Assembly: GCF_002153745.1 (NCBI RefSeq) | Contig: NZ_JOPL01000011.1 | Span: forward strand, 1 to 64,000 | Direction: 5' to 3' | Source: Acetobacter sp. DsW_063 | Lineage (GTDB): Bacteria; Pseudomonadota; Alphaproteobacteria; Acetobacterales; Acetobacteraceae | DNA length: 64,000 nucleotides | Shown: one piece after another, positions 43,089-60,235 of the stretch | How the letters are laid out: every line of letters begins with the position of its first letter | Position numbering within the stretch: the stretch's first letter is position 1 | Program-made: the position numbers and the translations under genes | Notes under the pieces: generated by a model | The model's database searches: none | The model's input: the letters and a program-made list of their open reading frames with translations, nothing else | What the model was told of the DNA's origin: nothing

Positions 43089-43910
43089 TTAATCGGCCTC
43101 GACCGGAATCGTAAAAACATAACCGGCGCCCCGCTCTGTTCGGATGATGCTGCGCCCGTCCTGCCCGGCGGCGCCGCCGCCATTGTCGAACCGACGGCGT
43201 AACCGGAGAATCTGAACGTCTATGCTCCTGTCGAACACGTCTTCGTGCACCCGCGTCGCGTTCAGGAGATATTCACGAGACAACGTCTTTCCAGCCGCAT
43301 CGAGGAACGCGACAAGAAGATTGAAATCTCCCTTGGTCAGACTGACCACGTTGCCAGACGGATCCGTCATCTGGCGGCCACGCCGATCCAGCCTCCATCC
43401 GCCGAAACGATAGACGCGCGGCGGCTCGGGCTCCACGCGCTTCTCTGCGCCGCGCCCGGCATGCTCGTCACGCGCCATTCGCAATGTGTCATGCCGACGT
43501 CCAACGACCCGAATGCGAGCCAGCAACTCACGCGGGCTGAAGGGCTTGATCAGATAATCGTCGGCCCCCAGTTCCAACCCGACTACCCTGTCGATCTCAG
43601 CCTTGCGATGCCCTGTCATAAGAATGATCGGCGCATCGGTGACGTCGCGGAATCTACGCATCACGTCGAGGCCATCGGCATCGCCAAGCTGCATATCCAG
43701 GACGATGACACACTGGGAAAGATCCAGTTCCCGAGCGGTTATATCGGCGACACCCGCCATCGCGACGATATTAACGCCGTTCGATTCCAGATAGTCGCCT
43801 ATGGCCTTGCGAAATTCATGGTCGTCGTCGATCAGGATCACGGTCGCCGCAGTTATCCCGTTGTCGGGGGTGACGTCCGCCCCCTCGGAGACCTGCGGCG
43901 CCACGGTCAC
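43089..43910 (-). CDS. OmpR/PhoB-type response regulator
   Basis: A 273-residue two-component regulator. The receiver has the acidic pocket IDDD (27-30), phosphoacceptor Asp72 (VLDMQLGDADG) and Lys122 in LIKPFSPREL. The C-terminal winged helix ends RTERGAGYVFTIP. It is intact. The GTG at 43910 overlaps the phosphatase stop (GTGA), making it the last gene of the kinase/FHA/phosphatase operon. A longer frame to 44057 lies inside the phosphatase gene. The histidine kinase at 49568 is the nearest candidate partner. Confidence 0.93.
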   Translation of the reverse strand: MTVAPQVSEGADVTPDNGITAATVILIDDDHEFRKAIGDYLESNGVNIVAMAGVADITARELDLSQCVIVLDMQLGDADGLDVMRRFRDVTDAPIILMTGHRKAEIDRVVGLELGADDYLIKPFSPRELLARIRVVGRRHDTLRMARDEHAGRGAEKRVEPEPPRVYRFGGWRLDRRGRQMTDPSGNVVSLTKGDFNLLVAFLDAAGKTLSREYLLNATRVHEDVFDRSIDVQILRLRRRFDNGGGAAGQDGRSIIRTERGAGYVFTIPVEAD

Positions 43911-44629
43911 GGACGCACCACCACAACGGCCGATACATTGTCCCGCGCTCGCCTGCGCAACGCGGTCGCCACCATCGCCCCGGCGACATCCCCGTCCTGC
44001 CCCAGAGCGTGACAAATCTCGTCGTCGTCCATGGTTTTCAGAAGACCGTCGCTGCATAACAGGAAGCGGTCACCGGGAAGAACTGTGCCGGTACGCTTGT
44101 CGATGGCCAGTTCCGGATCAGAACTGCCGACCGCCCGAGTTATGACGTTAGCGTGCGGGTGATTACGTCCTTCGCGCGACATAATGGCGCCCGAATCCAC
44201 CATCTGCTGGACCAGCGTATGATCGTGCGTGAGCTGGATCAGTTCACCGTCACGCAGGAGATAGACGCGTGAGTCACCCACCCACAGCACCACGAAATAA
44301 TCGCCTTCCAGCAGCAGCACAGCGACGGTAGTCGCCGCCGCGCCTCGAGGGTCCTCGCATTCCCCGGCCGCCTGACGCAACGTGTCATGCGCGTGCGCGA
44401 TGCTCTGACGAATTGCAGAAAGACGCTGCGACGGCGGCAAACCTTCCGGAATGGCTGCAATCGCGTCGATAACGGTGTTGGCCGCCCACCGTCCGTCCCG
44501 ATGCCCGCCAGCGCCGTCCGCGACTGCGTAAACCCCAAGCGAGGGCCGACTGATCAACGCGTCCTGATTCTCGCTCCTGAACGCGCCCGGATCGGTCGCG
44601 TGGTAGCTGTACTCAGCAATCGGATTCAT
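43907..44629 (-). CDS. PP2C-type protein phosphatase (PppA-like)
   Basis: A 240-residue metal-dependent Ser/Thr phosphatase. The motifs are in order: RSENQDALI, VADGAGGHRDG, VGDSRVYLL, CSDGLLKTM and RARDNVSAVVV. All the metal-binding Asp positions are present. In T6SS loci the PppA phosphatase reverses PpkA kinase action on the FHA protein. It sits directly after the FHA gene. The ATG at 44629 was chosen; one at 44653 would add eight residues. Confidence 0.93.
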   Translation of the reverse strand: MNPIAEYSYHATDPGAFRSENQDALISRPSLGVYAVADGAGGHRDGRWAANTVIDAIAAIPEGLPPSQRLSAIRQSIAHAHDTLRQAAGECEDPRGAAATTVAVLLLEGDYFVVLWVGDSRVYLLRDGELIQLTHDHTLVQQMVDSGAIMSREGRNHPHANVITRAVGSSDPELAIDKRTGTVLPGDRFLLCSDGLLKTMDDDEICHALGQDGDVAGAMVATALRRRARDNVSAVVVVRP

Positions 44630-44675
44630 GGGCGCAGCCCCCGTGCGCCGCAAAAGCAGCTCTGGTCGCGCCTTC

Positions 44676-45767
44676 TCACCGCGGTGTCATCCTCTCCCAC
44701 TCTTCCTGATAAGCGCGTGTGAACTCGGCGTCGAACAGCGCGTCGAAATTCGAACGCAACCGCCGGTGACGCTTGCGCAACAAGGCCGTAGCTCTCAGAC
44801 GTCTCCACGGCGTCAGCATATCTGCGGCCTGAGCCGTATCCTGACCAGGCAGGTAATCAGGATCGAGCACCTCGATCACACCGCGCGCGCAGCGACGATA
44901 GGCCCGGTCAACGCACACCAGATGGCGCTGCATTTCGTCAAACGCATCCGCTATCGCCAGTTCCGGCGCTTCGGCCCGGCCATTCCGCAAACCCGCAATC
45001 CAGCGAAGAACCTGCCCGTCGTCAGCATCTTCAGCCAGCGGCGATTTCCGCCATGTCGACAACGCGCGACGACGGCGGTCCGTCTCAATTCCATCCAGAC
45101 TGGACCGGGTCAGACGCCGCAACCCCCTGACGAACGCCTCCATCGACGCACTCAGCCTGTACAGAATTACCGAACGCCGCACGTCGGTGACGTTCGTTCC
45201 GTCAAGGCCAAGTATCTCCAGCAACGCGTCCGGACTGGCAGGAGCTTCAGGCGCAGGAGCCCGCCTCGGGGAAGCCGTGATGCGCGGCAATTCCACCGTG
45301 TCGTCCTGTACGTCCTTGCCACCGGCGCGTCTGGGCGCGCGCGGCGGCGGCATGGCGGCCGCAGTGGCCGTAGCGCTCGCCCGCAACCCCTTGATGGCGT
45401 CAGCGACGAAACCGGGCAATGGCATGATTCTGAAGGAGCTTTCGTCCTCCTGCAGATCGACGACCAGTTCATAGCCGCCAGCTTTTATGCGATCCCCACG
45501 ACCCAACCTGCGCGGCGTAGCGCCGACACGGGAGGAGCCGCCGCCCTGATCAAACGAAATGCCGTTACGGCTCATATCCGACAACGACCAGCCGTCCTCG
45601 TCCTGCTGGAAGAGGCAATGTCGCCGAGAAAGCTGGCGGTGAGGGTCGGCCAATACCCAGTCGTTCGTAGCGTCGCGGCCAATGGAGAAATATCCGCTGG
45701 AAACGCAACGAGTTTCAAGCTGTACCCCTTTTGGAGCGCTCGTCATGGACAGGACAAGCATCGTCAT
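44676..45767 (-). CDS. T6SS-associated FHA domain protein (TagH-like, second copy)
   Basis: A 363-residue protein. The N-terminal FHA domain has IGRDATNDWVL, SRRHC and SRNGISFD, the phosphothreonine-binding strands. The C-terminal region resembles the C-terminal domain of the TagH protein at 58712 (GLRRLTRSSL and DADDGQVLRWIAG aligned with GLRRAMIARAE and DDDDAIAALLG). It probably relays phosphorylation by the adjacent kinase. Its ATG overlaps the kinase stop. Confidence 0.88.
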   Translation of the reverse strand: MTMLVLSMTSAPKGVQLETRCVSSGYFSIGRDATNDWVLADPHRQLSRRHCLFQQDEDGWSLSDMSRNGISFDQGGGSSRVGATPRRLGRGDRIKAGGYELVVDLQEDESSFRIMPLPGFVADAIKGLRASATATAAAMPPPRAPRRAGGKDVQDDTVELPRITASPRRAPAPEAPASPDALLEILGLDGTNVTDVRRSVILYRLSASMEAFVRGLRRLTRSSLDGIETDRRRRALSTWRKSPLAEDADDGQVLRWIAGLRNGRAEAPELAIADAFDEMQRHLVCVDRAYRRCARGVIEVLDPDYLPGQDTAQAADMLTPWRRLRATALLRKRHRRLRSNFDALFDAEFTRAYQEEWERMTPR

Positions 45768-47368
45768 GACGCCTCCCTCCGACCACCGGTCGGCGCTTGT
45801 CCGATCGTCCGACGCACATCGGCCGGTCCTTTCCCGATCAGACGCAGAAACTCGTCCCGCTCATTTTGATGGCGGATAAACCCGGCGCACTCACTGACCA
45901 GCGTCAGCGGCGAGTTGCTTCGCGCAGCCATGCGCGCGACGACAGTGGGTCCGATGGGGCCGAGCACGTAGGTCAAGCAGCGGGCAGTCCACTCGCAGCA
46001 CCGTTGCCATCCAGCCTCATCAAAACTCTCCGCTGGCGTCGGAGGTTCGGAGACCTGCTCGACGGCAGGCTCGACAACGATCGGCGTCTCTGCAACCGAC
46101 TCAGAGGCGTAATCCACGATATCGTCAGTCGTATGGATTACCTGATCCTGCACAACGGAAGTGTGCGTCTCCGACACATGCGCCGAAGCCTCTGCATCGC
46201 CCTCCCACGCAGACCAGTCGGATACACCTTGTTCGCTCTCGAACACCGCCTCAGACGGCTCGGATTCGGGAGCCGCTTCATAGGCTGGCGTTTCGGCAGG
46301 CTCGACTGTCTCGTGGTGCGTGTAGTGCTGGTATTCCTCAGGCGCACTGACGGCCGGCCTGTAGTCGCCAGAGCTATACGCGCCAGAAGTCCCTCCAGAA
46401 GTTCCCAATGTCGGATCAAGAGGCGGCGCGACGATAGTTTCGTCCGAATCATGCCCCAAGCCGGACGTATGCCCGGCAACGACGCTTTTCAGCGTCTGCG
46501 CTAGAGGCGGCGGGCTTGGAGAGCGGATGTTGCTCGCATCATGCAGCGCCTGTGAGAAGGCGTCGGCGTCCGCGAAGCGGTCTTCCGGGCGCTTGGCCAG
46601 CGCGCGGTCTATCGCCTCGCTCAAGCCTTGCGGCAAATCGTCTCGCAGGGAGGACAGAGGCACATGCGGCTTGTTGATGATGCTCAGGATCGTGTCGGTG
46701 TAATTCGAGCCCGTGAATGGCCTCTGCCCGGCGAGCAGTTCGTAGACGACACACCCTAGAGAAAACAGATCCGAACGGCCGTCGAGTGCGGAGCCCATGC
46801 ACTGCTCGGGCGACATGTAGCTCGGCGTGCCGATCAACAACGGCGTCAGCGTCATCTCCGCGCTGGTCAGGCGCGAAATTCCGAAATCGGTGATTTTCAA
46901 CTTCGACTGCGGCGTCAGCAGAATGTTCGCAGGCTTGATATCGCGGTGAACAATGCCGCGCTCGTGTGCGTATTGCAGCGCGTCGAGCACCTGCAGCGCT
47001 ATCGGCATCACCTCTTCGACAGGGCGCTGCGAGCCGCGTGGAATGGCCTGTTGCAGACCAACCCCGTTGACGTACTCCATGACGAGGTAAGGGTTGTTCT
47101 CGTGAAGCGAGAAATCGTACAAACCGACGATGTTCGCGTGAACGCATCGTCCGGCGATCTTCGCTTCATTACGAAAGCGCTTGAAATAGCTTTCACGTTC
47201 CGCGCTATCGAGAAGATCGGCGCGTATCAGCTTGATCGCGACCGGACGGTCGATTTCCTCGTCATGCCCCTTGTAGACGACGCCCATGGCGCCGCGGCCC
47301 AGCATGGACTGTAGCCGGAAACGCCCGATGCGTTCCGGCATATGCGTCGTCGTCGCGGTCGCAGTCAT
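45764..47368 (-). CDS. Ser/Thr protein kinase (PpkA-like, soluble)
   Basis: A 534-residue Hanks-type kinase. The Gly-rich loop is LGRGAMGVVY (23-32), Lys46, HRD at 141-143, DFG at 161-163 and a GTPSYMSPEQ activation-loop end, all intact. An acidic, Pro/Ser/Thr-rich linker (about 275-440) leads to a helical C-terminal region (LGPIGPTVVARMAA) that resembles one I recall at the C-termini of other bacterial kinases. Unlike canonical PpkA it has no membrane helix. The ATG overlaps the stop of the upstream membrane protein. Confidence 0.92.
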   Translation of the reverse strand: MTATATTTHMPERIGRFRLQSMLGRGAMGVVYKGHDEEIDRPVAIKLIRADLLDSAERESYFKRFRNEAKIAGRCVHANIVGLYDFSLHENNPYLVMEYVNGVGLQQAIPRGSQRPVEEVMPIALQVLDALQYAHERGIVHRDIKPANILLTPQSKLKITDFGISRLTSAEMTLTPLLIGTPSYMSPEQCMGSALDGRSDLFSLGCVVYELLAGQRPFTGSNYTDTILSIINKPHVPLSSLRDDLPQGLSEAIDRALAKRPEDRFADADAFSQALHDASNIRSPSPPPLAQTLKSVVAGHTSGLGHDSDETIVAPPLDPTLGTSGGTSGAYSSGDYRPAVSAPEEYQHYTHHETVEPAETPAYEAAPESEPSEAVFESEQGVSDWSAWEGDAEASAHVSETHTSVVQDQVIHTTDDIVDYASESVAETPIVVEPAVEQVSEPPTPAESFDEAGWQRCCEWTARCLTYVLGPIGPTVVARMAARSNSPLTLVSECAGFIRHQNERDEFLRLIGKGPADVRRTIGQAPTGGRREAS

Positions 47369-48222
47369 GATTCGAGCAGAGCCATGGCGCTCTCCATGCT
47401 GCGCCGCAAGCGATTGAACGACGCAGTCAGAATGCTCAACTCGCCCGTCTTCGGAACATCGAACTCAACGACGCCCGCACGGCCAAGAGAGACGCTTTCA
47501 GCAATGGCCGAAACCCGCGCGATCGGGCGAAGCACAAGCAACTCCAGAACGACGTTCGCGGCGACCCACAGAGCGAGAATGATGCAGGCGACAGCGCCGA
47601 AAGTCCAATAGAAAGCAGATGACGTTGGCGGGAGCGACACGGTGGCGATCGTGGCGCCGACGATTTCGCCAGGCTGCCGATTGAACCCCTTGGCTCCGCC
47701 AAAAGCGTCGCGCACGCCAGCCGGAGCGGCGTCCAGCGAAGAATAACACGTCGCACATGCGCCGGGCCGCATCTTTAGAGGCGTGACGAGAGCAATGCTT
47801 CCGTCCGGAGTGACCTCGGTGAATTGCTGGCCGTCACGCGGGCCGCGCAATTCGGAGATCGCATCACGCTCCCACTCGTCAGGAGTGTCGTCCGCATTGG
47901 TCGGGTCAAGCACGACCCGGCGAAGACGCACGCCCGGCGCCAGCTTCTCAAGGAGCTTCGCGTTCGCCTCAACAGCGTAGAACGACGCCGCTGGCGGGAG
48001 AAAAAGCGCGCCGCCCCGATCTGCGCCACTCAGAAGCGGTGCGACTTCCTTGTCCGTATATTGGGCGATCGCGTCAGCCTGCGCCGTCAATATACGCGCT
48101 TCACGCGTGGCCTCCGTGATGCGGTCTCCGCTCAGGCTATACCCGAGCACAAACCACAAAAGGACCAGTCCTGCCGCCGCAACGGCGGCGAATGCGATGT
48201 TAACCTTGAGACGCAGGGTCAT
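47365..48222 (-). CDS. membrane sensor-like protein with Tll0287-like domain and HAMP
   Basis: A 285-residue protein with two membrane helices (about 7-29 and 205-226) enclosing a periplasmic Tll0287-like (DUF3365) domain. A cytoplasmic HAMP region (LRPIARVSAIAESVSLG) ends the protein. In the family the periplasmic domain carries a CxxCH haem site; here it reads CATCYS, so the His is replaced by Tyr. No output domain follows HAMP. It is 4 bases after the caspase-like gene and overlaps the kinase, so it may provide the kinase's missing membrane sensor. Confidence 0.85.
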   Translation of the reverse strand: MTLRLKVNIAFAAVAAAGLVLLWFVLGYSLSGDRITEATREARILTAQADAIAQYTDKEVAPLLSGADRGGALFLPPAASFYAVEANAKLLEKLAPGVRLRRVVLDPTNADDTPDEWERDAISELRGPRDGQQFTEVTPDGSIALVTPLKMRPGACATCYSSLDAAPAGVRDAFGGAKGFNRQPGEIVGATIATVSLPPTSSAFYWTFGAVACIILALWVAANVVLELLVLRPIARVSAIAESVSLGRAGVVEFDVPKTGELSILTASFNRLRRSMESAMALLES

Positions 48223-48226
48223 TATG

Positions 48227-49423
48227 TCACTCGCCCATCAGTTGCTGGGACTCTTCGGGCGAGAGCTTTCCTGTCACGGGGTGCCCGAGCACGGCTTGCA
48301 GCCGCTTGATCGCAGCGTGCGTCGCAGCGCTGTCGTAACCGGTCACCTGACCGGAATAGAAACCCTTGGCGAGCAGCGCTAATTGCGCATTACGCACAGC
48401 CGGATCCGTCTTCGGCGGCACGACGCGTTTCGGCGGCGAGGCTACCGGCGCAGCAGCTGCAACCGAGGGCGCGCTTGCTGCAGAACCTTCTGCTGCAGCC
48501 GCTGGTTTTTCTTCAGCCGCTGCAACAGGGACTGGCGAAGGCGCTGGAGCTGGCGGCGGAGTAATGACCGCCGGCTTCGTAGCGCCCGCGACCGCCTCAG
48601 GTGATGACGTTACGGGAGGCGGCGCGACGACAGGCGTCGTCGGTTTAGCCGGGGCTGGAGCACCCGATGGCGCAACTTGCGAAGGCGTTGTCGCGCCCTG
48701 CGAAGTAACCGCCGCAGCGGCAGGCGCACCGGCAAGAGCGCCACCTGCTGCGGAACTATCCGCAGCGTACGGCTGGGGGGAGGCCACAGCCGGGAGGAAC
48801 ACGCCCGGGAAGAATGCGTCGGCGCCGCGCAGTGCCGTGGTGATGAGGGTATCTATGACGCTAGCGCCGTTGGCGTCTTCGTCAACGCCCCCGAGCTTCC
48901 GCCCCCCGATCGCAGGATCGGAGCGCCACTGGGCGACGGCGTTTCCTAGCGGCGGGTCAGCCGAAAGCGGGTGTAGATCCAGAATGACGCCGCCGTTCGG
49001 CTGAACGATTCTGGAAAACGCTGTAGCGCTCATCGCGCCGCGAGACAGGTCTTCGGTAGCGATCGGCGTGCCGCTCGGAAGCAGAAACAGGCGGCCGCCG
49101 CGGACGGCCCCGTATCCACAAACCACCAGCAGTTGCGGCGTGCGGCTCGCATCAAGGGACGCGGCCATCATCGCGGCGCGGACCCCGTTCGCATCGGGCG
49201 ATTCAAGAAGGCGAGTCGGCACCCCGGCGGCTTTTAAGCTCGCTTGCAGCAGTGGCATTTTTGCAGCGCAACCGCTGAGTTTCGGCAGAGTTTCAACAGT
49301 AGGCAGGTTGATCAACGTGGCGGAGACGGGCTCGGCGTAAGCGGAACCTCCCAAAGCCGCACCCAGCAGAAGCGCTGCAAAAGACGCCCGGCGAGGGAGG
49401 CGCGAAAGGGGACGAAACATCAT
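48227..49423 (-). CDS. exported degenerate caspase-like protein with peptidoglycan-binding domain
   Basis: About 398 residues. A Sec signal peptide (ending SAYAEP) leads to a domain shaped like the bacterial caspase fold (C14). The YSGHG catalytic-His strand reads VCGYGAVRGGRLFLLP and the LDACR catalytic-Cys strand reads LDLHPLS, so both catalytic residues appear lost. A long Ala/Pro linker follows, then a C-terminal peptidoglycan-binding domain (GFYSGQVTGYDSAATHAAIKRLQ). The two ATGs at 49423/49420 follow GGAGG; a GTG at 49459 is less likely. It heads the regulatory operon. Confidence 0.8.
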   Translation of the reverse strand: MMFRPLSRLPRRASFAALLLGAALGGSAYAEPVSATLINLPTVETLPKLSGCAAKMPLLQASLKAAGVPTRLLESPDANGVRAAMMAASLDASRTPQLLVVCGYGAVRGGRLFLLPSGTPIATEDLSRGAMSATAFSRIVQPNGGVILDLHPLSADPPLGNAVAQWRSDPAIGGRKLGGVDEDANGASVIDTLITTALRGADAFFPGVFLPAVASPQPYAADSSAAGGALAGAPAAAAVTSQGATTPSQVAPSGAPAPAKPTTPVVAPPPVTSSPEAVAGATKPAVITPPPAPAPSPVPVAAAEEKPAAAAEGSAASAPSVAAAAPVASPPKRVVPPKTDPAVRNAQLALLAKGFYSGQVTGYDSAATHAAIKRLQAVLGHPVTGKLSPEESQQLMGE

Positions 49424-49567: not shown

Positions 49568-51268
49568 TCACTCACGCCCTGCCCCTCTCGATCCATCGCC
49601 CGAGCCGAACATCAATCGCAGCGCCGCGGCAATTGAGGTGCTGCTGTCCAATCCGGCGAGCCAAACCTGCCGCCCGGACACGCCGCCCAGCAACGTTGGC
49701 GGCGTCCGGCCAGGCGTCAGTATAGTCAGCGGCAGTGTCGGGCATACGGAGTGAAAGCGTTCCGCAAGAAAAAAATAATCATCCAGCTCTATAAGGTCGG
49801 TGCAAAGGAACACGGCGTGATAGTTATCGGGATCCCCCTCGATGACCCTCAGCGCCTCTCGCGGATGCGACAGGCCCAGAGGCTCGTAACCCAGCGCAGC
49901 AACGACATCCTCGATTCTTTCACGGACTGCACGTTCGGCGACGACGAGGACCGGCTCCCCCTCCCCCCTTGGCAGGAAGACAGTCCGGGCAGCCTCGTCA
50001 TGCGTCAGAAACCACACTTCGAACACGCTACCGCCGCCTGGCGCATCCAGCACGCGCAGGGCTCCTCCATGCTCCGAGACAATGTCCGCCACAGTGGAGA
50101 GGCCGAGCCCCGTGCCGGCGGGGCGCGTCGTATAGAATGGTCGGAAAATTTCGAGGCGAGCGACCGCGTCTATCCCGATCCCTGAATCCCGAACTTCCAG
50201 CACGACATATTCGCGCGAAGCCAAGGCCCCTATCTGCATGGCGAGCGAAGGGTTGCCGCTGCGCGTCTCCAGCGTCAATACGACTTCGCCCTCGTTCGCA
50301 ATCGCCTGCGCCGCATTTCGGATGAGATTGAACAGGACCTGCTGGATCTCCTCGACCCGACCTATCGTTTCCGCTCCGTCACTACGTTCGCGAAGTTCGA
50401 GACGGATGCGGGTTGGAATCGACGGCCGCACGAGGAGAATCGTCTCCTCGCACAGTGACCCAAGCTGAACCACCTTCTCGACGAAATCCCGTCGACCAAC
50501 ACCGAGAAGATTCTCAATTAACTCGCCAGCCCGCTCGCCGGCGTTCTTGATCGACAGCACAGCGTTGTAGACCGGTGCGTTCCCCCGCGACGCCTCCAGC
50601 GCCGTTTCCGTATGTCCCAACATCGCCGCAAGCACATTGTTCAGATTATGCGCCATACCAGCCGCCGTGGCGCCGGCAATTTCGAGACGCTGCGACTGCC
50701 GCAGGCGGCGCTTTACCTCACCCCGCTCTTCCGAAAGTCGGTTGCGCTCCAGCGCAAGTCCGATCAGCTCGGCGATCTGCCGCGCTTCGGTCGGCGCATG
50801 CGGACCGCCAGGCCCGAAACGATCTCGCCATGGCCGCGACGACCGGCACAGCAACAAAAGACCCGCTACATCGTGTCGACCGCGAACGGGAACCAGATGC
50901 ACGTAAAGAAGCCCCAGCCGCGCAAGCCTCCGCTCTCCTTCCCCCTTCGCTTCCGGGTCCAGAACCAGCGCACGCTCCGCGACCGCGTCCTTCGCGCGCT
51001 CCGCCGCGAACGCACGCAGAGCCTCTCCAAGCTCGGCTGGCGCCGGTGTTTCCGGCGCCAGCCATGCTTTTCGTATCGGGCGTCCCGGAGAGGTCAAAGC
51101 GACGCTTCGTGCGGAGCAGCACGCCCCGAGCACACAAAGCGCGTCGTCAATAGCGTCGGCGAGTTCGGCTGAATGCGCAGCCGCCAGACTGGCCGCCACA
51201 CTCTGATAAGCGCCACGACCACCCTTGGCCGCAATCAGTCCTGAAGGAATTCGGGTCGACATTCTCAA
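49568..51268 (-). CDS. sensor histidine kinase with C-terminal receiver-like domain
   Basis: A 566-residue cytosolic kinase with no membrane helix. A GAF-like region (about 25-180) is followed by HisKA with His207 in GMAHNLNNVLAAMLGHTE. The ATPase domain has N-box FNLIRNAAQA, RDSGIGID and TGLGLSTVADIV. The C-terminal receiver-like domain (about 440-560) keeps an Asp in LCTDL, but the acidic pair is VVAER instead of VVDDE. It is a candidate partner of the response regulator at 43089. Confidence 0.88.
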   Translation of the reverse strand: MRMSTRIPSGLIAAKGGRGAYQSVAASLAAAHSAELADAIDDALCVLGACCSARSVALTSPGRPIRKAWLAPETPAPAELGEALRAFAAERAKDAVAERALVLDPEAKGEGERRLARLGLLYVHLVPVRGRHDVAGLLLLCRSSRPWRDRFGPGGPHAPTEARQIAELIGLALERNRLSEERGEVKRRLRQSQRLEIAGATAAGMAHNLNNVLAAMLGHTETALEASRGNAPVYNAVLSIKNAGERAGELIENLLGVGRRDFVEKVVQLGSLCEETILLVRPSIPTRIRLELRERSDGAETIGRVEEIQQVLFNLIRNAAQAIANEGEVVLTLETRSGNPSLAMQIGALASREYVVLEVRDSGIGIDAVARLEIFRPFYTTRPAGTGLGLSTVADIVSEHGGALRVLDAPGGGSVFEVWFLTHDEAARTVFLPRGEGEPVLVVAERAVRERIEDVVAALGYEPLGLSHPREALRVIEGDPDNYHAVFLCTDLIELDDYFFLAERFHSVCPTLPLTILTPGRTPPTLLGGVSGRQVWLAGLDSSTSIAAALRLMFGSGDGSRGAGRE

Positions 51269-51430
51269 TTCATGGCACGGGCTTCACAGCCCGCCCATCC
51301 GCTTACACGTCCAATATTCAGATATAACGAAAAATTCTTGAAACTGAGCACTCATTACCGGCCAATTGACCGCAATATTTCCTTGTGTCATCTCTCCCGA
51401 GTATTCATCGTCCTTGAGGCCAATACAATC

Positions 51431-52051
51431 ATGACAACGTCCAGTCGTTCCAATCATCTGGTCCATAACGGCTGCTGGTCCGGAGCGCTGCTTCTGGCCC
51501 TGTCTCTCGCCGGATGCGCGGATGACGCGAGCAAGTCTGCTCACCAAGAGAAAACACCGCAGACTTGGCGCGTCGCCGTTACCGGCGCCAGCGACGCAGA
51601 CGCCGCGGCCATTGCCGGTCCGCTGAGCGCGGCGCTGGTGTCCAGCGGCGTCGCCGCCTCCGTTGTGACGGACGCCTCGCCTGTCGATCACGTGCTCGAG
51701 GCCGAAGTGCAAAGCGTGCATCACTCGCAGATTTCGACCCGTCTTCGTAACGGCAAGCGCCATTGGACGCCGGGACCGGCGACTGCCGTCATTGCGCATG
51801 AAACAGTAAGGAACGGGCACGCGACGGATCTCTCGATCGAAAAATCCTTCGACGTTTCCGTCTCCGCCACGCCGCCGAAAACGAAGCCCAAGAACGCCTC
51901 GGACGCCAGTCAGACGACCGAACCCTCGGTTTTCGATCTTTTCGCGCAACGGACTGTCGAACACCTTCAGGACGCCCCTGCCGACGCGACTGCTGCTGCG
52001 GCTCCGGGCGAGACCGCGTCTGGAAACGCCCCTGCTTCCGGCGCGCAGTAA
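51431..52051 (+). CDS. predicted lipoprotein beside the T6SS structural genes
   Basis: A 206-residue lipoprotein: signal peptide with lipobox LSLAGC (Cys29). The mature part (about 177 residues) has an alpha/beta character (TWRVAVTGASDADAAAIAGP) and an Ala-rich tail. I do not recognise the fold; it lacks obvious TssJ features. The start at 51431 keeps the lipobox near the N-terminus. It is divergent from the histidine kinase and convergent with tagF. Confidence 0.75.
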   Translation: MTTSSRSNHLVHNGCWSGALLLALSLAGCADDASKSAHQEKTPQTWRVAVTGASDADAAAIAGPLSAALVSSGVAASVVTDASPVDHVLEAEVQSVHHSQISTRLRNGKRHWTPGPATAVIAHETVRNGHATDLSIEKSFDVSVSATPPKTKPKNASDASQTTEPSVFDLFAQRTVEHLQDAPADATAAAAPGETASGNAPASGAQ

Positions 52052-52079: not shown

Positions 52080-52631
52080 TCACCGCCCTCTGTCGGGGGT
52101 CGTGAGCAACCAGTCGAACGCCTGATCGACCGGAAGCGCGCAACGCAGCGTGACCGGTGGTCCGGAATGCGTCTCCAGCCACCAGATATCTCTCTCAGGC
52201 GGAGCCGACGGCCAAGGGTAACCGCACAGCCGAGTTATCTCCTGATCGACGACATCGGGGTCTTTCCCTGAAGCAATCGCATCCCTTACGACGTCGCTGA
52301 ACGGCGCCAGCGCGCGATACAGCACGTCTCGCGGATCATGAACGATCGCCAGAACGAACGGGAAGCAACGACCGACCTTGTCGACGCTAGGGGCCCATAC
52401 GCCAGTCACGGCGCAATTCGGACTCAGTTGCCCCGACATGATCGTAAAATGCCAGAACGGCGCGGCGTGCCAGACTTCTTCGAACGCGTCCCCCAGCCGC
52501 TCACGAGATCCGGCAATCTGGTGGGTAATCCAGTCATGCAGCCGGTCGTTCATGTCGTCCGGCAGGCCGCCCCGCAAAAAATCGCCTCTGGAAGGCAGCT
52601 TTCCGTAATATCCGACATAAGGCGCAATCAT
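52080..52631 (-). CDS. tagF: T6SS-associated protein TagF
   Basis: A 183-residue T6SS accessory protein (BMA_A0400/TagF family). It begins YVGYYGKLPSRGDFLRGGLP, with CFPFVLAI later. TagF is a post-translational repressor of T6SS in Pseudomonas and others, fused to PppA in some species. The ATG overlaps the tssM stop (TAATG). The longer frame to 52883 lies inside tssM. Confidence 0.93.
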   Translation of the reverse strand: MIAPYVGYYGKLPSRGDFLRGGLPDDMNDRLHDWITHQIAGSRERLGDAFEEVWHAAPFWHFTIMSGQLSPNCAVTGVWAPSVDKVGRCFPFVLAIVHDPRDVLYRALAPFSDVVRDAIASGKDPDVVDQEITRLCGYPWPSAPPERDIWWLETHSGPPVTLRCALPVDQAFDWLLTTPDRGR

Positions 52632-55600
52632 TACGGAACCGCCGGGCAGGAGAATCCACGCAGAAGATCGAAAACGAAGGCCCCATCCGACGGAACGGTA
52701 ACGTGCACTTCCTCGCCGTCCGGGAACAGGAACACTCGCTGACCGCCTTCGGCGGGTTGCTGAAAGCCCTGCTGCAGAAGACGAAACGGCGCCCACGGGC
52801 CCTGCGCCTGCGCCAAAGTCTGCGCGCCGTCCTTTCGCGTGCGCGTGATGGTCGCCGGCGAGAGACCGTCGGACCCAGGCCACGTCAGATGCGCCGTAGC
52901 GTCAGGATGTACCGTCGCCGCGCCGAGCGAGAGAGAAAATTCGGGCGAACTTTTCAGACTTATCGGGAACGATACGAACGGCGCGCCTCCCGCCGGGAAA
53001 AACGCCTTGCGGATCGCGGCGGTACGCTGGAAAGCGGCGAGTTGCTGCGCCGTGAACGGCGGCGTGACGCCGCCTGTCGGATGGAGCCGCCAAGTGGTGC
53101 CGCTCTGGTCCGTGTAAGGAGCGACAGACGTCTGAAAATACTGGTCGAGCAGACCTCCCGGCGCGAATACCCGCACGAAACCATCCAGCGGCGCGTCCGT
53201 CGTAGCTTCCACGTCGAACGGAAAGTGGTTCTTAACCAACGCGGTGCATGCCTTTCCCGGACCCTCGGCGCCGTTAAATGCCCCGGACGCCGATTGCCGC
53301 GCCGCCTGACCAAGCGCCGAGCCGCCGGATTCGGCGATCTGCTGCAACCATGTCGCGACAGGTTCGGGCTGGCGCGACGCCTCTGTACGCAGCCGCTGCG
53401 CAGGATCCAAAGACGCGCCCGCCGTCATCGGCAGGGCGCCGGGCGAAGCGACGCCCCGCGACAATTCATCGCTGAGCTGCCCGATAAGCCTGAGAAGCGT
53501 TTCGATCGCCGGGGCTCCCGATCCCTCAGGATGAATCAGTGAAAAAAGTGGCTTGTTGCTGTCATTCCATGACGCGGCGACAACATCCATCGGATCAAGC
53601 GGACCCTGCTGGGCCACCGCCGCACCAGCGCCCTGCTCCTTACTCTGGGGCGGCTTCGGCATCGGTACGGTCTGTGCATCGGCAATGGACGCCACCATAT
53701 CGCGCAAGGGCGATTGCGGCGAAGACAGCATATACAAGCTGCTTTCCACCTGTGAACGGTCCCCCGTCAGCCGCAGCGAAAGATCGTTGAGGACGCGATC
53801 CCAATGCTTGCGCGCGTCGTCGACCCAAAGCTGCGCGACTTCGGACTCCAATCCTCCGACAGCCGATCCGTTGACGGTCACGTCCGGATCGCGACCGACC
53901 ACCCAGGACTCATCCGCTACCGCACGGGCCGCAGACGGCAGGTCCTTTCTGACCGCGACCGCGAAACCCTGACCGGTATAGAAAGCGGGCACGCCGTCCG
54001 TCATCGGCGCGCCGCTACGCCGGGAGAAAACAGTATCAGCCACTGCGCCCAGCACGCCTGCGGGCGACCACGCGTGAATATCGGCAGGCAGCGCGCCCGC
54101 GCGGAGACGTCCGTAGATTCTTTCCGCAGGCGTCACGTGACCGAAGGCGATGCGCGCCTGACGGATAAGATCCCCGTCGAGATGCGCCTCCGCTGGCGGC
54201 GGCAGCGCCAAAAGCGCGTCCAGATGATGGTCGAGCCGCTCACGTAACGCGACATTGAGGGAACCCGGGAAAAGTCCGCCCCATGCCTGGCGGAACCAAT
54301 CCTCGACGATACCTGGCTCGCGCGGACCAAGGCCACCGAGCAGCAGATAGACACGCGTCGCTTCGTAAAGCACGCCAGGGTCGTGCATGTGCTGGCGCAT
54401 CTCGTGCTCTACCCGCCAGACCAGTCGCGGATAGAACTGACGCCGCAAGGCGTTCTCGTACGCCGACCTGCCCGCGTCGTCGATCGCGCCGCGCGGCGCC
54501 AGATGAAAAAATCGGGCCAGACGATCCGGTTGCGGCTGCTGCGCCGCTGAGATTTTATCGAGTACGTCGCAGACCTGCACCAGATCCGCGTCGCTATCCA
54601 CCGCCTTACCCGCGAGCGGCGTCACCGCGTCGCGATAAGCCGCAAATATCTCAAGACGCTGCTGCACCATGGCGCGCGCCTCCATCTCTGCGCGCCAGAT
54701 CAGCACAAGACCGACGACCGTGCAAAAAACGAGCGCCGCGAGAGCCGACGACCGCACCATTCGCCTGAGCCTGTAGCGATCCGGCGCCTGCGAGACGAGC
54801 AGCGCCTCACCGAGCACCACTTCGCGAATAAGCCGGGTGAGGAAGTAGGCTCTGCCCCGGTTACCTTCGGGCGCACCCACACGTTTCTGGTCGATCCCAA
54901 ACGACTTGACGAGCGCGCCTGCAAGCCGGTCGAGCGGAGCGCCGACCTGCGTCGCTGACGTGAAATAGACGCCGCGCACCAAAGGGGCCTGATCGACGCG
55001 ACTGCCGCTGAAGCCGATCTGAAGAAACGACGACAGCGGCTCGAGAAGGCTTGCGACTTGTAGCGGAAAGCCGCTGATCAACGCGCGCCTGTCGGCGCCG
55101 CGCTCGGCCTGCAGACGCTCGATCAGACGCGCCTCCAGCCTTCCGAGCAACAATCGAAACTCCTCGAGAAACGCGTCCTGCCCCTGCTCCAGCCGGAAGG
55201 TCATGCCCCAGACCTGCTCGCGGGATTTGCTGTCGAGATCATCGAAAAACGCGTCGAAACCCGCGAGGCGATCCGCCTTGTTGAACATGAGATAGACCGG
55301 AATCCTCATGCCTAGCCGTTCGGTCACCTCGTTGATTCGAAGCCGAATCTGGCGCGCATGGGCCTCAAGCGTCTCAGGCGTCGCCTCGATGATCTCGACG
55401 AGCGAAATCATCACCAGCAACCCGTTGACCGGCTGACGCGGACGCGCCTTGCGCAGAGCGTCGAGAAAGCCGAGCCAACCCGCGCGATCGACGGCGCGAT
55501 CAGAATCCTGCGTGGTATAGCGACCGGCGGTGTCGATCAGCACCGCCTCCTCGGCGAACCACCAGTCGCACAGACGCGTGCCGCCAACGCCGCGAAGCGC

Positions 55601-56059
55601 CTCGTCCCCATCCTTCTCAAGCGGGAAATGCAGGCCCGAGTGACGCAGCGATGTGGTTTTGCCGGATCCCGGCGGTCCGATCAGGATATACCATGGCAGT
55701 TCGTAGAGGCGACGCACGCCGCGCCGACGCAGAGCGACGATCGCCTCCTGAAGTTTCTTCCGCAGGGCCCGGACTTCGTCGTTCGCCGCCTGCTCGTCCT
55801 GCTGCCCTTCCTTCTTGTCGATCAGGGCGTCCCGGACCTTGCTCTCCTCTGTACGGCGGCGGCGATGAAGCACATACGTCACCGCTGCAACGATCAGACA
55901 AGCGGCCGCGACGGCTATCGCACGACGCAATGTCGGCGCGAAAAATGGCACGAACGGCAGATAGAACCACAGCATCGTGCCGATCATCACGGCTATGCCG
56001 AAGGCGGTGGACCAGCGGTTGCGAAACAGCATCCGCAGCAACGACAAAACCTGACTCAT
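52631..56059 (-). CDS. tssM: T6SS inner-membrane ATPase-like protein TssM (IcmF)
   Basis: A 1142-residue core membrane-complex protein that spans the envelope and anchors the machine with TssL (and TssJ where present). Two N-terminal membrane helices (about 20-37 and 46-64) are followed by a cytoplasmic domain with Walker A GPPGSGKT (128-135) and VLIDTAGRY, a third helix near 440, and a large periplasmic region to the C-terminus. The nucleotide-binding site is intact. It overlaps tssL by ATGA. Confidence 0.97.
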   Translation of the reverse strand: MSQVLSLLRMLFRNRWSTAFGIAVMIGTMLWFYLPFVPFFAPTLRRAIAVAAACLIVAAVTYVLHRRRRTEESKVRDALIDKKEGQQDEQAANDEVRALRKKLQEAIVALRRRGVRRLYELPWYILIGPPGSGKTTSLRHSGLHFPLEKDGDEALRGVGGTRLCDWWFAEEAVLIDTAGRYTTQDSDRAVDRAGWLGFLDALRKARPRQPVNGLLVMISLVEIIEATPETLEAHARQIRLRINEVTERLGMRIPVYLMFNKADRLAGFDAFFDDLDSKSREQVWGMTFRLEQGQDAFLEEFRLLLGRLEARLIERLQAERGADRRALISGFPLQVASLLEPLSSFLQIGFSGSRVDQAPLVRGVYFTSATQVGAPLDRLAGALVKSFGIDQKRVGAPEGNRGRAYFLTRLIREVVLGEALLVSQAPDRYRLRRMVRSSALAALVFCTVVGLVLIWRAEMEARAMVQQRLEIFAAYRDAVTPLAGKAVDSDADLVQVCDVLDKISAAQQPQPDRLARFFHLAPRGAIDDAGRSAYENALRRQFYPRLVWRVEHEMRQHMHDPGVLYEATRVYLLLGGLGPREPGIVEDWFRQAWGGLFPGSLNVALRERLDHHLDALLALPPPAEAHLDGDLIRQARIAFGHVTPAERIYGRLRAGALPADIHAWSPAGVLGAVADTVFSRRSGAPMTDGVPAFYTGQGFAVAVRKDLPSAARAVADESWVVGRDPDVTVNGSAVGGLESEVAQLWVDDARKHWDRVLNDLSLRLTGDRSQVESSLYMLSSPQSPLRDMVASIADAQTVPMPKPPQSKEQGAGAAVAQQGPLDPMDVVAASWNDSNKPLFSLIHPEGSGAPAIETLLRLIGQLSDELSRGVASPGALPMTAGASLDPAQRLRTEASRQPEPVATWLQQIAESGGSALGQAARQSASGAFNGAEGPGKACTALVKNHFPFDVEATTDAPLDGFVRVFAPGGLLDQYFQTSVAPYTDQSGTTWRLHPTGGVTPPFTAQQLAAFQRTAAIRKAFFPAGGAPFVSFPISLKSSPEFSLSLGAATVHPDATAHLTWPGSDGLSPATITRTRKDGAQTLAQAQGPWAPFRLLQQGFQQPAEGGQRVFLFPDGEEVHVTVPSDGAFVFDLLRGFSCPAVP

Positions 56060-57393
56060 TGACCGGAAGTTCCGTCCACCGTGATCTCGACGCGACGGTT
56101 CGCCCGTCGTCCTTGTTCGTTGCTGTTGTCGCCTATTGGCGACTGATCGCCCATGCCAATCGCCGTAACGCGATCTCCGCCGATATACGGCGAGAGAATT
56201 TCCGCCGCAGCCCGCGCGCGCGCCAGAGCGAGATCATAGTTGGACGGGAAGACAAGCGAATGGATCGGTTGGGTGTCGGTGTAGCCTTCGACCCGCGTCT
56301 TACCTTCGTTGCGCCCAATTGCATCGCCGATACGCCGCAGCACAGCGACATATTGCGGCAGAACCGTCGCCTGCCCGGATGCGAACATTCCCTGACTTTG
56401 CAGGCGAACAATCGGAACTGACTCTGTTCCTTCGACTGACAGATGCCCCTGTTGGATGTCACCCTGCAGCGCCGCGATCAGGCGGGAGCGCAGACCCGGA
56501 CGCTGAGGCGTCGGCGGAGGCGGAGTCTCCGGCCCGGCGCGGGTGATCGTCGCCATCGTCGCTGGCGGCAGATGCGCGGCGGCCGAAAGCAGGTCGTCGG
56601 AGGAACTGCCTATTCCAAAGGACGCGAAGGCGTAGACAACGCTGAGCAACCCGACGCCCACAATCCCGGCCAGCCATAGCGGCGTCTCGAACCGCGGCGC
56701 GCGGAACGGACGAGCGAGCCCCATCCAGTGCGGAGACAAGTCCCGGGGCGCCGAGCCCTTCAGGCGCATGATCGTCGCGTAGGTCTCCTCCCGCGCCTGA
56801 TCCAGCTCGGCAGGACCACGTGGCGAAAGGCGGTATTGGCCCTGCATGCCCAGCGACATGCAAAGATACATCAACTCCAGCAACGGCAGAAACGCGTTGG
56901 GGCTACCAAGAAGCTTTCGAAGAATCTGAAAGAACCGCTCACCGCCTTTAACATCACGGTGGAATGCCGAGGTAAGCGACAGGTCGGCCCACGGCCCACG
57001 GCTGCCCCAGGGCGTGCATTGCACGACATCGTCCAGGCTGGCGCAAAGCACGTAATGAGCGATCCGGATCATATCAGGATCGATCCGCTCCTCGCGCAAC
57101 GCGGCCTCGTAGCTCCGGATTTCACCGACCGTGCGTTCCCGCAGGGTGCCGGGATCAGGAACGGTCAGCGTATTGCGCAGCCGCGCGATCAGCGAAAGCA
57201 ACGGACCTGCGAAGGAGATGACCGGCGATTCTCCCGTGCCTGCGAGAGACGCGAAATCGGCTTCCGGCATGGACGCCGCCGTCTGCGCCGGCGCGTTCGC
57301 GCGTTGCGCAAGCGCAGATATGGCGGAGCGAGGCATGATGACCGTGCGATCGTCGTCCTCGGGCTCGGCGAAGGGATTTGCGTATTCACTCAT
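56056..57393 (-). CDS. tssL: T6SS membrane protein TssL with OmpA-like domain
   Basis: A 445-residue protein. The DotU-type cytoplasmic domain (about 75-220, with CTPWGSRGPWADLSLTSAFH) leads to one membrane helix (about 238-256). A C-terminal OmpA/peptidoglycan-binding domain then has GYTDTQP and NEQGRRANRRVEI. Extended TssL proteins anchor the complex to the cell wall. The ATG overlaps the tssK stop. Confidence 0.96.
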   Translation of the reverse strand: MSEYANPFAEPEDDDRTVIMPRSAISALAQRANAPAQTAASMPEADFASLAGTGESPVISFAGPLLSLIARLRNTLTVPDPGTLRERTVGEIRSYEAALREERIDPDMIRIAHYVLCASLDDVVQCTPWGSRGPWADLSLTSAFHRDVKGGERFFQILRKLLGSPNAFLPLLELMYLCMSLGMQGQYRLSPRGPAELDQAREETYATIMRLKGSAPRDLSPHWMGLARPFRAPRFETPLWLAGIVGVGLLSVVYAFASFGIGSSSDDLLSAAAHLPPATMATITRAGPETPPPPTPQRPGLRSRLIAALQGDIQQGHLSVEGTESVPIVRLQSQGMFASGQATVLPQYVAVLRRIGDAIGRNEGKTRVEGYTDTQPIHSLVFPSNYDLALARARAAAEILSPYIGGDRVTAIGMGDQSPIGDNSNEQGRRANRRVEITVDGTSGQ

Positions 57394-58715
57394 GCGCGGA
57401 TGGCCCAGAGTTCAAGCATCAGATTCGGGAAATCATTGGAAACGTGAATGGCGAAGCCGCCTGAGTGCTTCATCGCCTCCCAGTGAGGCGAATGACGCTC
57501 GAGTTCGAAATACTGCGCGCCGGGAATATACGGCATCTGCCGCGGCGCCACTGGCAGCAGACGCAACTCGATGCCCGGCAACGCGACATTGACCAGTTCA
57601 CGAATATGCTCGACGGCGCCGATTTTCGCGGTTTTCGGGAAATCCCGACGGAGCGTCTCGCTTGGCACGTCGGCGTGGGCCACGAGCACGATGGAGCCGC
57701 CGACAAGGATCGTACGGTCGGTGATCGTTCCGACCCTGACGCCATGCCGATGCTCGCGCAACGGAATTTGCACCGCCGTCTGCTCCAGCACGCTCGACAG
57801 CGAGCGACGGATGGCGGCGGTCACCGGGGCGAAACTACGCTGCAGATCGTCGTGGCGATATGTCTCGAAACTCTCCGGACGGCGGGACGACTCTGTGAAC
57901 GTCGCCAATTCCCCGGCCATTTCCAGGAACTTCCGATACAGCTCTTCGGGATGAATGCGCCCTGTATCCGCCAGGTGGGATAGCAGCGACTGCCAGCCGT
58001 TGATGCGTTGCAGCAACATGAAGTCAGTGACCTCGCTGTTGCTTTTCGCGCCTATCGCCGTCAGACGCGCGGCGATCGCTTCGCGACGCTGATGCAGCAC
58101 CCCCACGAGTTCGACGAGCAGGTTCGCGAGCACCGACGACACGTGGCAGGAGATGACCGGCGGAATCCAGTTCGGATCCAGAATGACACGCCGGTCGGCC
58201 GTCACCTCGACAATGCGCGCGACGGGCAGGCAGAGAAACCCGGCCCGGTCGTCCGTATCGAGCATCAGACGCGGCGCCAGACGTCCGATCTGAATCGTCG
58301 CCTGCGCTGTCGCCCCGGAATGGGTGTCGTCGATATCCATTTCCCGGGCCTGAAACCGGACGGGCCGACCTGCGTCCCCAAACTCCGCCCGGCCGGGACC
58401 CGCAATGGGAACCGCAAGATGCACCAGCACGTCACGCGCCGAGTCCGGCGCAAGGAGAGGCTGAGGCAATTCGGACTCATCCGGCGCGAAGAACTGGGTG
58501 CCGTCCTCGAAAAGCCCCGCAGCGGAGGCGAGGCCGAAACGGCCTGATGAGAGCAGATCCCGCGCGATGACGAGTTCGGTGAACCCCCACGAGTAGGGCC
58601 GCAGCATCGTCAGGCCCCGACCGAGAGCCTGGCTGCTCCAGCGGTCCTGCTGCTGAAAATGCTGCGCGCGGAGGAACATGCCCTCCTGCCACACAACGCG
58701 ATTGGCCCAACTCAC
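57390..58715 (-). CDS. tssK: T6SS baseplate protein TssK
   Basis: A 441-residue baseplate subunit connecting the baseplate to TssL/TssM. The N-terminus has NRVVWQEGMFLRAQHFQQQD, the family signature, and the C-terminus VALPGIELRLLPVAPRQMPY with HSPHWEAM. It starts with GTG overlapping the tagH stop (GTGA). Confidence 0.97.
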   Translation of the reverse strand: MSWANRVVWQEGMFLRAQHFQQQDRWSSQALGRGLTMLRPYSWGFTELVIARDLLSSGRFGLASAAGLFEDGTQFFAPDESELPQPLLAPDSARDVLVHLAVPIAGPGRAEFGDAGRPVRFQAREMDIDDTHSGATAQATIQIGRLAPRLMLDTDDRAGFLCLPVARIVEVTADRRVILDPNWIPPVISCHVSSVLANLLVELVGVLHQRREAIAARLTAIGAKSNSEVTDFMLLQRINGWQSLLSHLADTGRIHPEELYRKFLEMAGELATFTESSRRPESFETYRHDDLQRSFAPVTAAIRRSLSSVLEQTAVQIPLREHRHGVRVGTITDRTILVGGSIVLVAHADVPSETLRRDFPKTAKIGAVEHIRELVNVALPGIELRLLPVAPRQMPYIPGAQYFELERHSPHWEAMKHSGGFAIHVSNDFPNLMLELWAIRA

Positions 58716-60235
58716 GATCTTTTATCCTTCGCGTCTCGTAGAACCCGCTGGTCGGAGGCTCCAATGTCGCGCAAGGCCGCCTCATAAGCCCTGCCGAAAG
58801 CCCGCCCGAACACCCCGTCCATATTTTCCTCGAGTGAACGCGCGACCTCCCCATGGGATTGCACGTAGGCGTTCCAGGCTTTCGCCCGCCGAAGAAGCGA
58901 CAACGGTTTGCCGGGTTCGTAGGCCAGACGCCCGAGCACGGCTTCAGGTCCGTTGCTGCGCAGCAACTCCTCGGCGGCGGCCTCCATCGCTCGCGTCACG
59001 GCGATTTCGTGCTTGCGAATGTCGTCCATCGTGTCGGCGATCGCGCCTGACGGACTGACGCCGGTGCGGCGGCCGACCCCGAGCAGAGCTGCTATCGCGT
59101 CGTCGTCGTCAATTGCGAATTTGAGCGGGTTATTACCGTGCGGCTGGATCATGGTCCGGTCTATGCGAAATTCGCCCTTGATCTCGGCGCGCGCGATCAT
59201 CGCCCGTCGAAGACCCGTCACCATCGCGCGAAACGCCCGTCCCATTTCCTCCATCAACTGCGCGGGCTGTTCGACCGACGCGCCGTCAATTCCGGCTCCA
59301 CGAAAGAAAGCGGCGACCACACTCTCATTTTCGCCAGATTGTGGCGAAGGCGCATACCCTGATAGCTGCTGCGGCGCATGAGGTGACGACGGATGCGGCG
59401 CGGGTGCGTGATGCGGGAGCGGCGCCTCGAACGGCGACGCCGCCGAGGGGGCGGCTGCCGGAAGTGGCCCGGACGGCAAAGTAGGGTCGAGCGCCGGATG
59501 CGGCGGCAGCGCCCCGGGCTCCGTCGGGGCGGATGATTGCCGCTCACTTGCCGGAGGCCCTTCGCTCAGCGGGACTTCCCAATCATCGGGTAGCAGCAGC
59601 GAGGTCGGCCTAGGCGGCGTAAACGAAGCCTCCAGATCCGACACCGCATCACTTGGAGTGAAAGAGTCGCCTTTCGTCCGGGGCACGGGCGGTGTTTCAA
59701 TCTCACCCAAGGCGATATCGAAAGGATTAACGATCGACAGCGTCCGCGGCTTGTCTGATCGGATGCCTGAGCCTGTCAGGTCGAAGAAAGCGCCCGGCCC
59801 GGCCTCCTGCTCAAACACACTTTCGAACGTGGTTTCGCGGTTCTGAGTCATCGGCTTCGGCGGGTACCGTCCGCCCGCGGCTTTGCCCCCGAGCGTCGCC
59901 TCGTCACCTGAAGGGTTCGCTGCCTCGACCAGCTTCGCGTCGATTTCGTAACTACCAAAACCTATACGGTCTCCGTCGCGGAGTTCGCACGGCACGCCCG
60001 GCGGTAACAACCGACCATTGACTGTCATGCCGTTGCTGCTGAGATCGGTCACCATCCAGCGTGCTTGCTGACGCACGATCTCGCAATGACGTTTGGACAA
60101 CAGGCGTTGAGGATCCACCAGCACCCAGTCGCACCCGGCGCCGCGCCCGAGCGTGACCCTGTCGCTCTGAACGTTGAAATCCTGAAGGCTCACACCGGTC
60201 GGGACGCGATGCACCGCGAGAATCAGGCTTTTCAT
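58712..60235 (-). CDS. tagH: T6SS-associated FHA domain protein TagH
   Basis: A 507-residue FHA protein that, where studied, receives phosphorylation from the PpkA kinase to control T6SS assembly. The N-terminal FHA domain has LGRGAGCDWVL, SKRHC and SSNGMTVNG. A long Pro/Ala/Glu linker leads to the C-terminal TagH domain (about 315-505) with LEENMDGVFGRAFGRAYE. The ATG overlaps the stop of a 55-codon ORF. Confidence 0.93.
   Translation of the reverse strand: MKSLILAVHRVPTGVSLQDFNVQSDRVTLGRGAGCDWVLVDPQRLLSKRHCEIVRQQARWMVTDLSSNGMTVNGRLLPPGVPCELRDGDRIGFGSYEIDAKLVEAANPSGDEATLGGKAAGGRYPPKPMTQNRETTFESVFEQEAGPGAFFDLTGSGIRSDKPRTLSIVNPFDIALGEIETPPVPRTKGDSFTPSDAVSDLEASFTPPRPTSLLLPDDWEVPLSEGPPASERQSSAPTEPGALPPHPALDPTLPSGPLPAAAPSAASPFEAPLPHHAPAPHPSSPHAPQQLSGYAPSPQSGENESVVAAFFRGAGIDGASVEQPAQLMEEMGRAFRAMVTGLRRAMIARAEIKGEFRIDRTMIQPHGNNPLKFAIDDDDAIAALLGVGRRTGVSPSGAIADTMDDIRKHEIAVTRAMEAAAEELLRSNGPEAVLGRLAYEPGKPLSLLRRAKAWNAYVQSHGEVARSLEENMDGVFGRAFGRAYEAALRDIGASDQRVLRDAKDKRS

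Follow-up and report, generated by a model that had tools for sequence, protein, structure and literature searches.

A candidate trans-acting sensor and kinase pair at a type VI secretion locus of Acetobacter sp. DsW_063

How is the kinase that licenses a type VI secretion system (T6SS) told that the moment to fire has come? The signal is known for only a few such systems. Passages of two papers (PMC10482370, PMC12607579) describe the known PpkA kinases as membrane-bound enzymes that phosphorylate Fha or TssL, with PppA reversing the modification and TagQRST or RtkS activating the kinase. We analysed a 64,000-nucleotide stretch from Acetobacter sp. DsW_063 (contig NZ_JOPL01000011.1, positions 1 to 64,000; hereafter the window), part of contig C37 in a 3.03 Mb assembly that is 69% complete, where a block of regulatory genes lies near T6SS genes. 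We propose, at a probability of roughly 0.6, that this block encodes a T6SS threonine-phosphorylation pathway in which the one-piece membrane kinase (PpkA) is split into a sensor and a separate Ser/Thr kinase, a pair that offers a defined candidate receptor for a T6SS kinase.

An earlier note on this DNA had described six tightly linked genes, and open reading frames and domain searches recovered all six at 43089..49423, with order, coordinates and gaps matching exactly. Read along the minus strand, they encode an exported protein with a C-terminal peptidoglycan-binding domain (48227..49423; PG_binding_1); a sensor (47365..48222) consisting only of a transmembrane (TM) segment, a Tll0287-type Cache domain (Tll0287-like profile 72.1 bits, cut-off 24.1), a second TM segment and a HAMP domain, with no output domain; a Ser/Thr protein kinase with a C-terminal GPIG motif domain (45764..47368; Pkinase 185 bits); an FHA protein with a T6SS_FHA_C domain over cut-off, here called FHA2 (44676..45767); a PP2C phosphatase (43907..44629; PP2C_2 67 bits, over cut-off); and an OmpR/VirG-like response regulator (43089..43910) whose GTG start overlaps the phosphatase stop. 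A seventh gene had been overlooked: a VirA-like histidine kinase (49568..51268) lies 144 bp upstream on the same strand. Beyond it, also on the minus strand, are tagF (52080..52637; TagF_N 100 bits), tssM, tssL and tssK (52631..58715, from domain matches) and the canonical FHA protein TagH (58712..60235; TIGR03354 260 bits, over cut-off). The window therefore encodes a Ser/Thr kinase, a T6SS-type FHA protein and a PP2C phosphatase together with a T6SS, and what we take to be the essential motifs are intact in the Ser/Thr kinase, the phosphatase, the histidine kinase, the regulator and the FHA proteins.

The Ser/Thr kinase is not a membrane-bound enzyme of the PpkA type with a periplasmic sensing part, as a simple hydropathy scan found no TM segment in it. 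What, then, could it phosphorylate? The recovered part of the window genome contains a single Pkinase match and two FHA matches (TagH and FHA2), all in this locus. The same counts hold for two relatives each given as 100% complete (G037 and G056); a third (G025, 99% complete) also has two FHA matches, with one Pkinase match above cut-off and another below. With so few players in the window's lineage, signalling from the kinase to TagH and FHA2 would be the simplest wiring. The C-terminal region of the window kinase has no Pfam or NCBIfam match and carries a motif, GPIAxxLVxR, that a pattern count found in two copies in 61, one copy in 36 (window included) and no copy in 5 of 102 kinase rows, some of them clipped by contig ends. 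This domain may be a docking part for the HAMP protein.

Is the sensor really the partner of the kinase? A sensor query against a family sample of 200 genomes matched 49: 33 strongly (E <1e-34, window included), 7 over a long but weaker alignment and 9 through the HAMP part only. The kinase followed the sensor directly in 32/32 family loci fetched, on the same strand in 30/32 by an automatic rule whose two misses were overlapping-frame artefacts (the kinase match of G056 begins about 40 bases after the sensor, and L052 is alike). A further scan, the named scan, found the kinase adjacent in 73/80 loci, a count biased by an alignment built from kinase-linked sensors; nine of its loci that repeated family genomes were omitted from the final adjacency tally, the sensor tree and the near-invariant-position and kinase-motif analyses. 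Among five strong sensor loci in a phylum sample of 397 genomes, the kinase followed directly in three: in G333 and G423, where the pair lies some 6-7 kb from tssK, and in G421, where neither TssK nor VipB was found. In the other two (G510, G259) the sensor match has no kinase match beside it, and TssK and VipB were not found there either. The constant core of the block is thus a TM-Tll0287-HAMP sensor with a Ser/Thr kinase devoid of TM segments.

This pair keeps company with T6SS genes. All 33 strong-sensor family genomes carry them (TssK in 32, VipB in the 33rd, G147), compared with TssK in 92/200 family genomes overall (Fisher 1e-11; by genus, 26/26 versus 33/76; the p-values ignore relatedness). 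All seven weak-match genomes lack TssK, and their sensor neighbourhoods contain no kinase match, one having a peptidoglycan-binding neighbour. T6SS genes adjoin the pair on plasmids of Skermanella, Caballeronia and Paraburkholderia (five of seven plasmid matches were examined, two Caballeronia records being left out) and in Arenibaculum, Arboricoccus, Rhodospirillaceae SYSU D60014 and Variovorax J22P240; on a Rhodovulum plasmid that carries the pair, the 30 kb examined contain no annotated T6SS gene. Three Variovorax loci encode a FecR-like protein, the sensor, the kinase, a T6SS-type FHA protein and a PP2C phosphatase in that order. The domains were confirmed in Variovorax sp. KK3, where FecR falls just under cut-off and a T6SS_FHA_C protein follows the kinase.

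Several observations weigh against a dedicated T6SS role. The strong sensor is absent from 60/92 TssK-bearing family genomes, and at least two T6SS genes lie within the fetched stretch at only 7/32 family and 8/80 named loci, although the stretches reached at most 20 kb and many ended at contig edges. In the named scan, for which TssK was sought at 49 of the 80 loci, TssK occurs in 28/49 genomes (98/397 in the phylum sample); the 21/49 with the pair and no TssK match include all five Accumulibacter (L092, L095, L097, L102, L108). Closer to the window, G009 lacks FHA2 and has two other Pkinase matches (three Pkinase and one FHA match altogether), another relative (L041) has no VirA or VirG match in the stretch fetched, and the window genome itself is only 69% complete. 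TssK alone does undercount T6SSs: Variovorax J22P240 (G627) scored none despite tagF, tssM and tssL beside the pair. An exclusive use of the pair for T6SS control is nonetheless rejected, since the pair also occurs outside the family in genomes in which no T6SS genes were found. The genomes without TssK, together with G421, which also lacks VipB, indicate that the ancestral target need not be a T6SS. The pair is a frequent, not a constant, T6SS companion.

Could the pair then be a general phosphorylation module that merely sits beside T6SS genes and has its main targets elsewhere? Its presence without TssK, and the many family loci that are not beside T6SS genes, are what such a module would produce. 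Set against this are the confinement of FHA domains in the window's lineage to TagH and FHA2, the T6SS_FHA_C proteins that follow the kinase both here and in Variovorax KK3, and the complete co-occurrence by genus, so that we regard a general module as unlikely. A split T6SS pathway accounts better for the window, and the earlier note's view of a front end unlike TagQRST, tied to the T6SS kinase-FHA-phosphatase set, is upheld by sensor-kinase adjacency and T6SS linkage. Its first two genes are not scattered or unlinked from kinase and T6SS genes, as the adjacency counts and the T6SS genes nearby in several lineages attest. As a T6SS front end these two genes fare unevenly: the linkage of sensor and kinase stands, whereas T6SS specificity across bacteria does not (TssK in 28/49), nor does a fixed role for the first gene, which proved exchangeable (see below).

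The block recurs in other Acetobacteraceae, where the earlier note had suggested looking for it, in four genera: whole and beside T6SS genes in two, in part in two. L038 (G037) and L039 (G025) share the window's order tssK-tssL-tssM-tagF-VirA-exported protein-sensor-kinase-FHA2-PP2C-VirG. In L040 (G009), whose stretch opens at a contig edge, the exported protein, sensor, kinase, PP2C and VirG remain but FHA2 gives no match, and L041 (G056) keeps the genes from exported protein to PP2C, adjoining tssC/tssF. A same-genus genome (G649) is collinear with window positions 16072-64000 at about 91% DNA identity, which rejects an assembly artefact. Ratios of nonsynonymous to synonymous substitution (dN/dS) against G649 were 0.018 for PP2C, 0.030 for FHA2, 0.046 for the sensor, 0.050 for VirA, 0.066 for VirG, 0.077 for the kinase (388/534 residues aligned) and 0.20 for the exported protein, values that indicate purifying selection on every block gene. 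In BLAST alignments with four more distant relatives, kinase identity was 70-78% and sensor identity 46-52%, suggesting that the input side evolves faster.

What does the sensor sense? A profile of its relatives matches Tll0287 (5B82) and the HAMP domain of AF1503 among solved structures. Passages of a preprint (PMC12889525) describe DUF3365/Tll0287 as a Cache domain with c-type haem in which CXXCH is conserved in 99%, and report that a Pseudomonas azotoformans member with two TM segments and a HAMP domain (WP_033902098) carries haem c, binds nitric oxide (NO), which it releases slowly, and forms no stable complex with oxygen. The window sensor matches the Tll0287-like profile but lacks the CXXCH haem c motif, having CATCY in its place (47743..47757, minus strand; residues 156-160). 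Attachment of c-type haem normally requires the histidine of this motif. Of the 45 sensor rows, CxxCH stands in 40 and CATCY in five (the window and L038-L041); G649 has CATCY too; CxxCH was found in 80/80 named-scan loci, but one of the two patterns of that scan spans the stretch altered in the CATCY sensors, which it could hardly detect. The five CATCY sensors form one clade (support 100/100, from a bootstrap that had not settled), whose stem is 2.67 changes per column long. In an analysis of near-invariant positions that omitted the weak sensor rows L066-L072 and L037, His160, Tyr174, Trp182, Asn106 and Leu157 were replaced in 5/5 clade members, while both cysteines and 21 others of 51 such positions were kept in 5/5.

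The likeliest reading of these replacements is that covalent haem was lost in the window's lineage. With the haem histidine now a tyrosine, the input there has probably ceased to be a haem ligand; both cysteines being kept, a thiol switch remains conceivable. Might the CATCY protein still bind haem in an unusual way, for instance non-covalently or through a tyrosine ligand, and still sense NO or redox state? The retained cysteines, the 21 other conserved positions and the low dN/dS would fit, yet the five positions replaced throughout the clade, its long stem branch and the usual need for the histidine make persistent haem binding doubtful. We therefore favour loss of covalent haem, and consider that the sensor, a descendant of a haem-carrying gas or redox sensor, probably activates a free protein kinase.

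The exported protein at the head of the six genes has the fold of a caspase but not the catalytic pair. Homologues exceed the Peptidase_C14 cut-off, the family profile matches both MALT1 and peptidoglycan-binding domains, and a structural model, confident in parts only (mean predicted local distance difference test, pLDDT, 54.9; 70-84 over most of residues 30-100), also matches MALT1 in a VIA-align comparison. Caspases use a His-Cys catalytic pair; by eye, this pair is absent at the aligned positions in 6/6 sequences, and in L054 the histidine is present and the cysteine absent. A peptidoglycan-binding gene upstream of the sensor was recognised in 19/33 family genomes by hand count. Elsewhere the slot holds a FecR-like protein (Betaproteobacteria) or a protein without Pfam match (Gammaproteobacteria), and the gene immediately before the sensor in Skermanella is tagF. 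This variety indicates that the exported partner is exchangeable and the sensor-kinase pair constant.

How is transcription controlled? The VirA-like histidine kinase (HATPase_c; HisKA just under cut-off) has no TM segment by hydropathy and is best matched in NCBIfam by PRK13837, at 316 of the 647 bits needed; the regulator is best matched by VirG, at 188.5 of 344 bits. Both fall below cut-off. The histidine kinase and receiver motifs of the pair are present, and the VirA-like kinase is conserved with the regulator in two further genera (L038, L039), making it the likelier partner of the regulator. The earlier note had a single input acting on two outputs, with the envelope proteins reaching the regulator as well, by way of the Ser/Thr kinase. 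This view fits a single tight same-strand block in which the regulator gene overlaps the phosphatase gene, but it is improbable and was not supported, because a full histidine kinase whose H, N and G motifs are intact stands at the head of that block and accompanies it in L038 and L039 (L040, cut by a contig edge, is uninformative).

From gene content, order and conservation, the intact catalytic motifs and the loss of the haem motif, all observed directly, we infer the following function. The peptidoglycan-binding pseudo-caspase and the periplasmic Tll0287-derived Cache domain would read the envelope, and HAMP would signal their state through the inner membrane to the Ser/Thr kinase, a protein of its own. 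By analogy with known systems, the kinase would phosphorylate T6SS components read by TagH and FHA2 and so license assembly, PP2C would reverse the phosphorylation and TagF would restrain the system. Transcription would be a separate matter, governed by the products of the two genes at the ends of the block, the VirA-like kinase and the VirG-like regulator.

The block is probably its own transcription unit, because a plus-strand gene, divergent from the VirA-like gene, separates it from tagF. This gene has an open frame at 51272-52051, a likely start at 51431 (51431..52051, plus strand), a lipoprotein-like N-terminus in translation and no Pfam match. Substitutions against G649 in this frame number 32 at third positions versus 11 and 10 at the others, an excess that places the gene on the plus strand; a minus-strand gene in this interval was rejected, having no family match. 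No lipoprotein-like gene lies between tagF and VirA in L038 and L039. On the other flank, a D-Ala-D-Ala dipeptidase-family gene (Peptidase_M15; 41932-42690, minus strand) lies about 400 bp downstream of the regulator. Among the T6SS genes, the product of hcp (62313-62795) shares 62% identity with that of G649, compared with 93-99% for neighbouring T6SS proteins. Two tandem VipB/TssC matches lie on one strand beyond the window (contig C37, 67872-68795 and 69442-70374), and paired tssC-like frames also occur in L041, L062 and L085.

A broader reading is possible, and we offer it tentatively. HAMP-only haem-Cache receptors may form the sensing half of a Ser/Thr-kinase system that acts in trans and is widespread. 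Such receptors would pass periplasmic NO or redox state to a membrane-free kinase, and proteobacteria would have wired the pair repeatedly to license T6SS firing. The haem histidine would have been lost once, in one Acetobacteraceae lineage that kept both cysteines, leaving a haem-free sensor that acts alongside a peptidoglycan-bound pseudo-caspase and may be a thiol-disulphide switch or respond to a ligand. The word "secretion" is absent from the text of preprint PMC12889525, and a search that left most subscription literature uncovered, and so does not prove that none exists, found no paper joining T6SS with Tll0287 or DUF3365, or joining T6SS, the threonine phosphorylation pathway and HAMP. 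Conversely, the pair offers a candidate output for NO-binding HAMP proteins without an output domain of their own, and the natural switch from CxxCH to CxxCY is a ready comparison between a haem form and a probably haem-free form.

How does the locus compare with known systems? The exported protein shares its fold with caspase-like proteins (Peptidase_C14; MALT1 fold) and differs from them in being exported, in its peptidoglycan-binding C-terminus and in the missing catalytic pair. The sensor resembles the sCache_heme receptor WP_033902098 as that protein is described in passages of PMC12889525 (two TM segments, Tll0287 domain, HAMP, no output domain); it has CATCY instead of the CXXCH of sCache_heme (Tll0287/DUF3365) receptors, and its partner kinase is encoded next door, whereas those passages name none for WP_033902098. 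The VirA/VirG-like genes recall VirAG of Burkholderia, which passages of PMC3795662 describe as controlling T6SS-1, in being a pair of that name encoded at a T6SS cluster; here, unlike Burkholderia VirAG, they bracket a kinase-FHA-phosphatase set, and the likeness drawn is one of name. The closest counterpart is the PpkA-Fha-PppA pathway of Pseudomonas, Serratia, Agrobacterium and Acidovorax, in which, as here, a Ser/Thr kinase, an FHA protein, a PP2C phosphatase and TagF accompany the T6SS. Unlike those systems, the window has two FHA proteins, and no TagQRST or RtkS was noticed among its scanned genes, which were not searched specifically or systematically for either. Unlike PpkA, its kinase has no TM or periplasmic part, and a separate TM-Cache-HAMP protein takes the sensor's place. 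Since the sensor is a separate protein, the block is best classed, by this analogy, as a putative variant of the PpkA-Fha-PppA pathway, with its receptor supplied in trans and the two genes of an ordinary two-component system at its ends.

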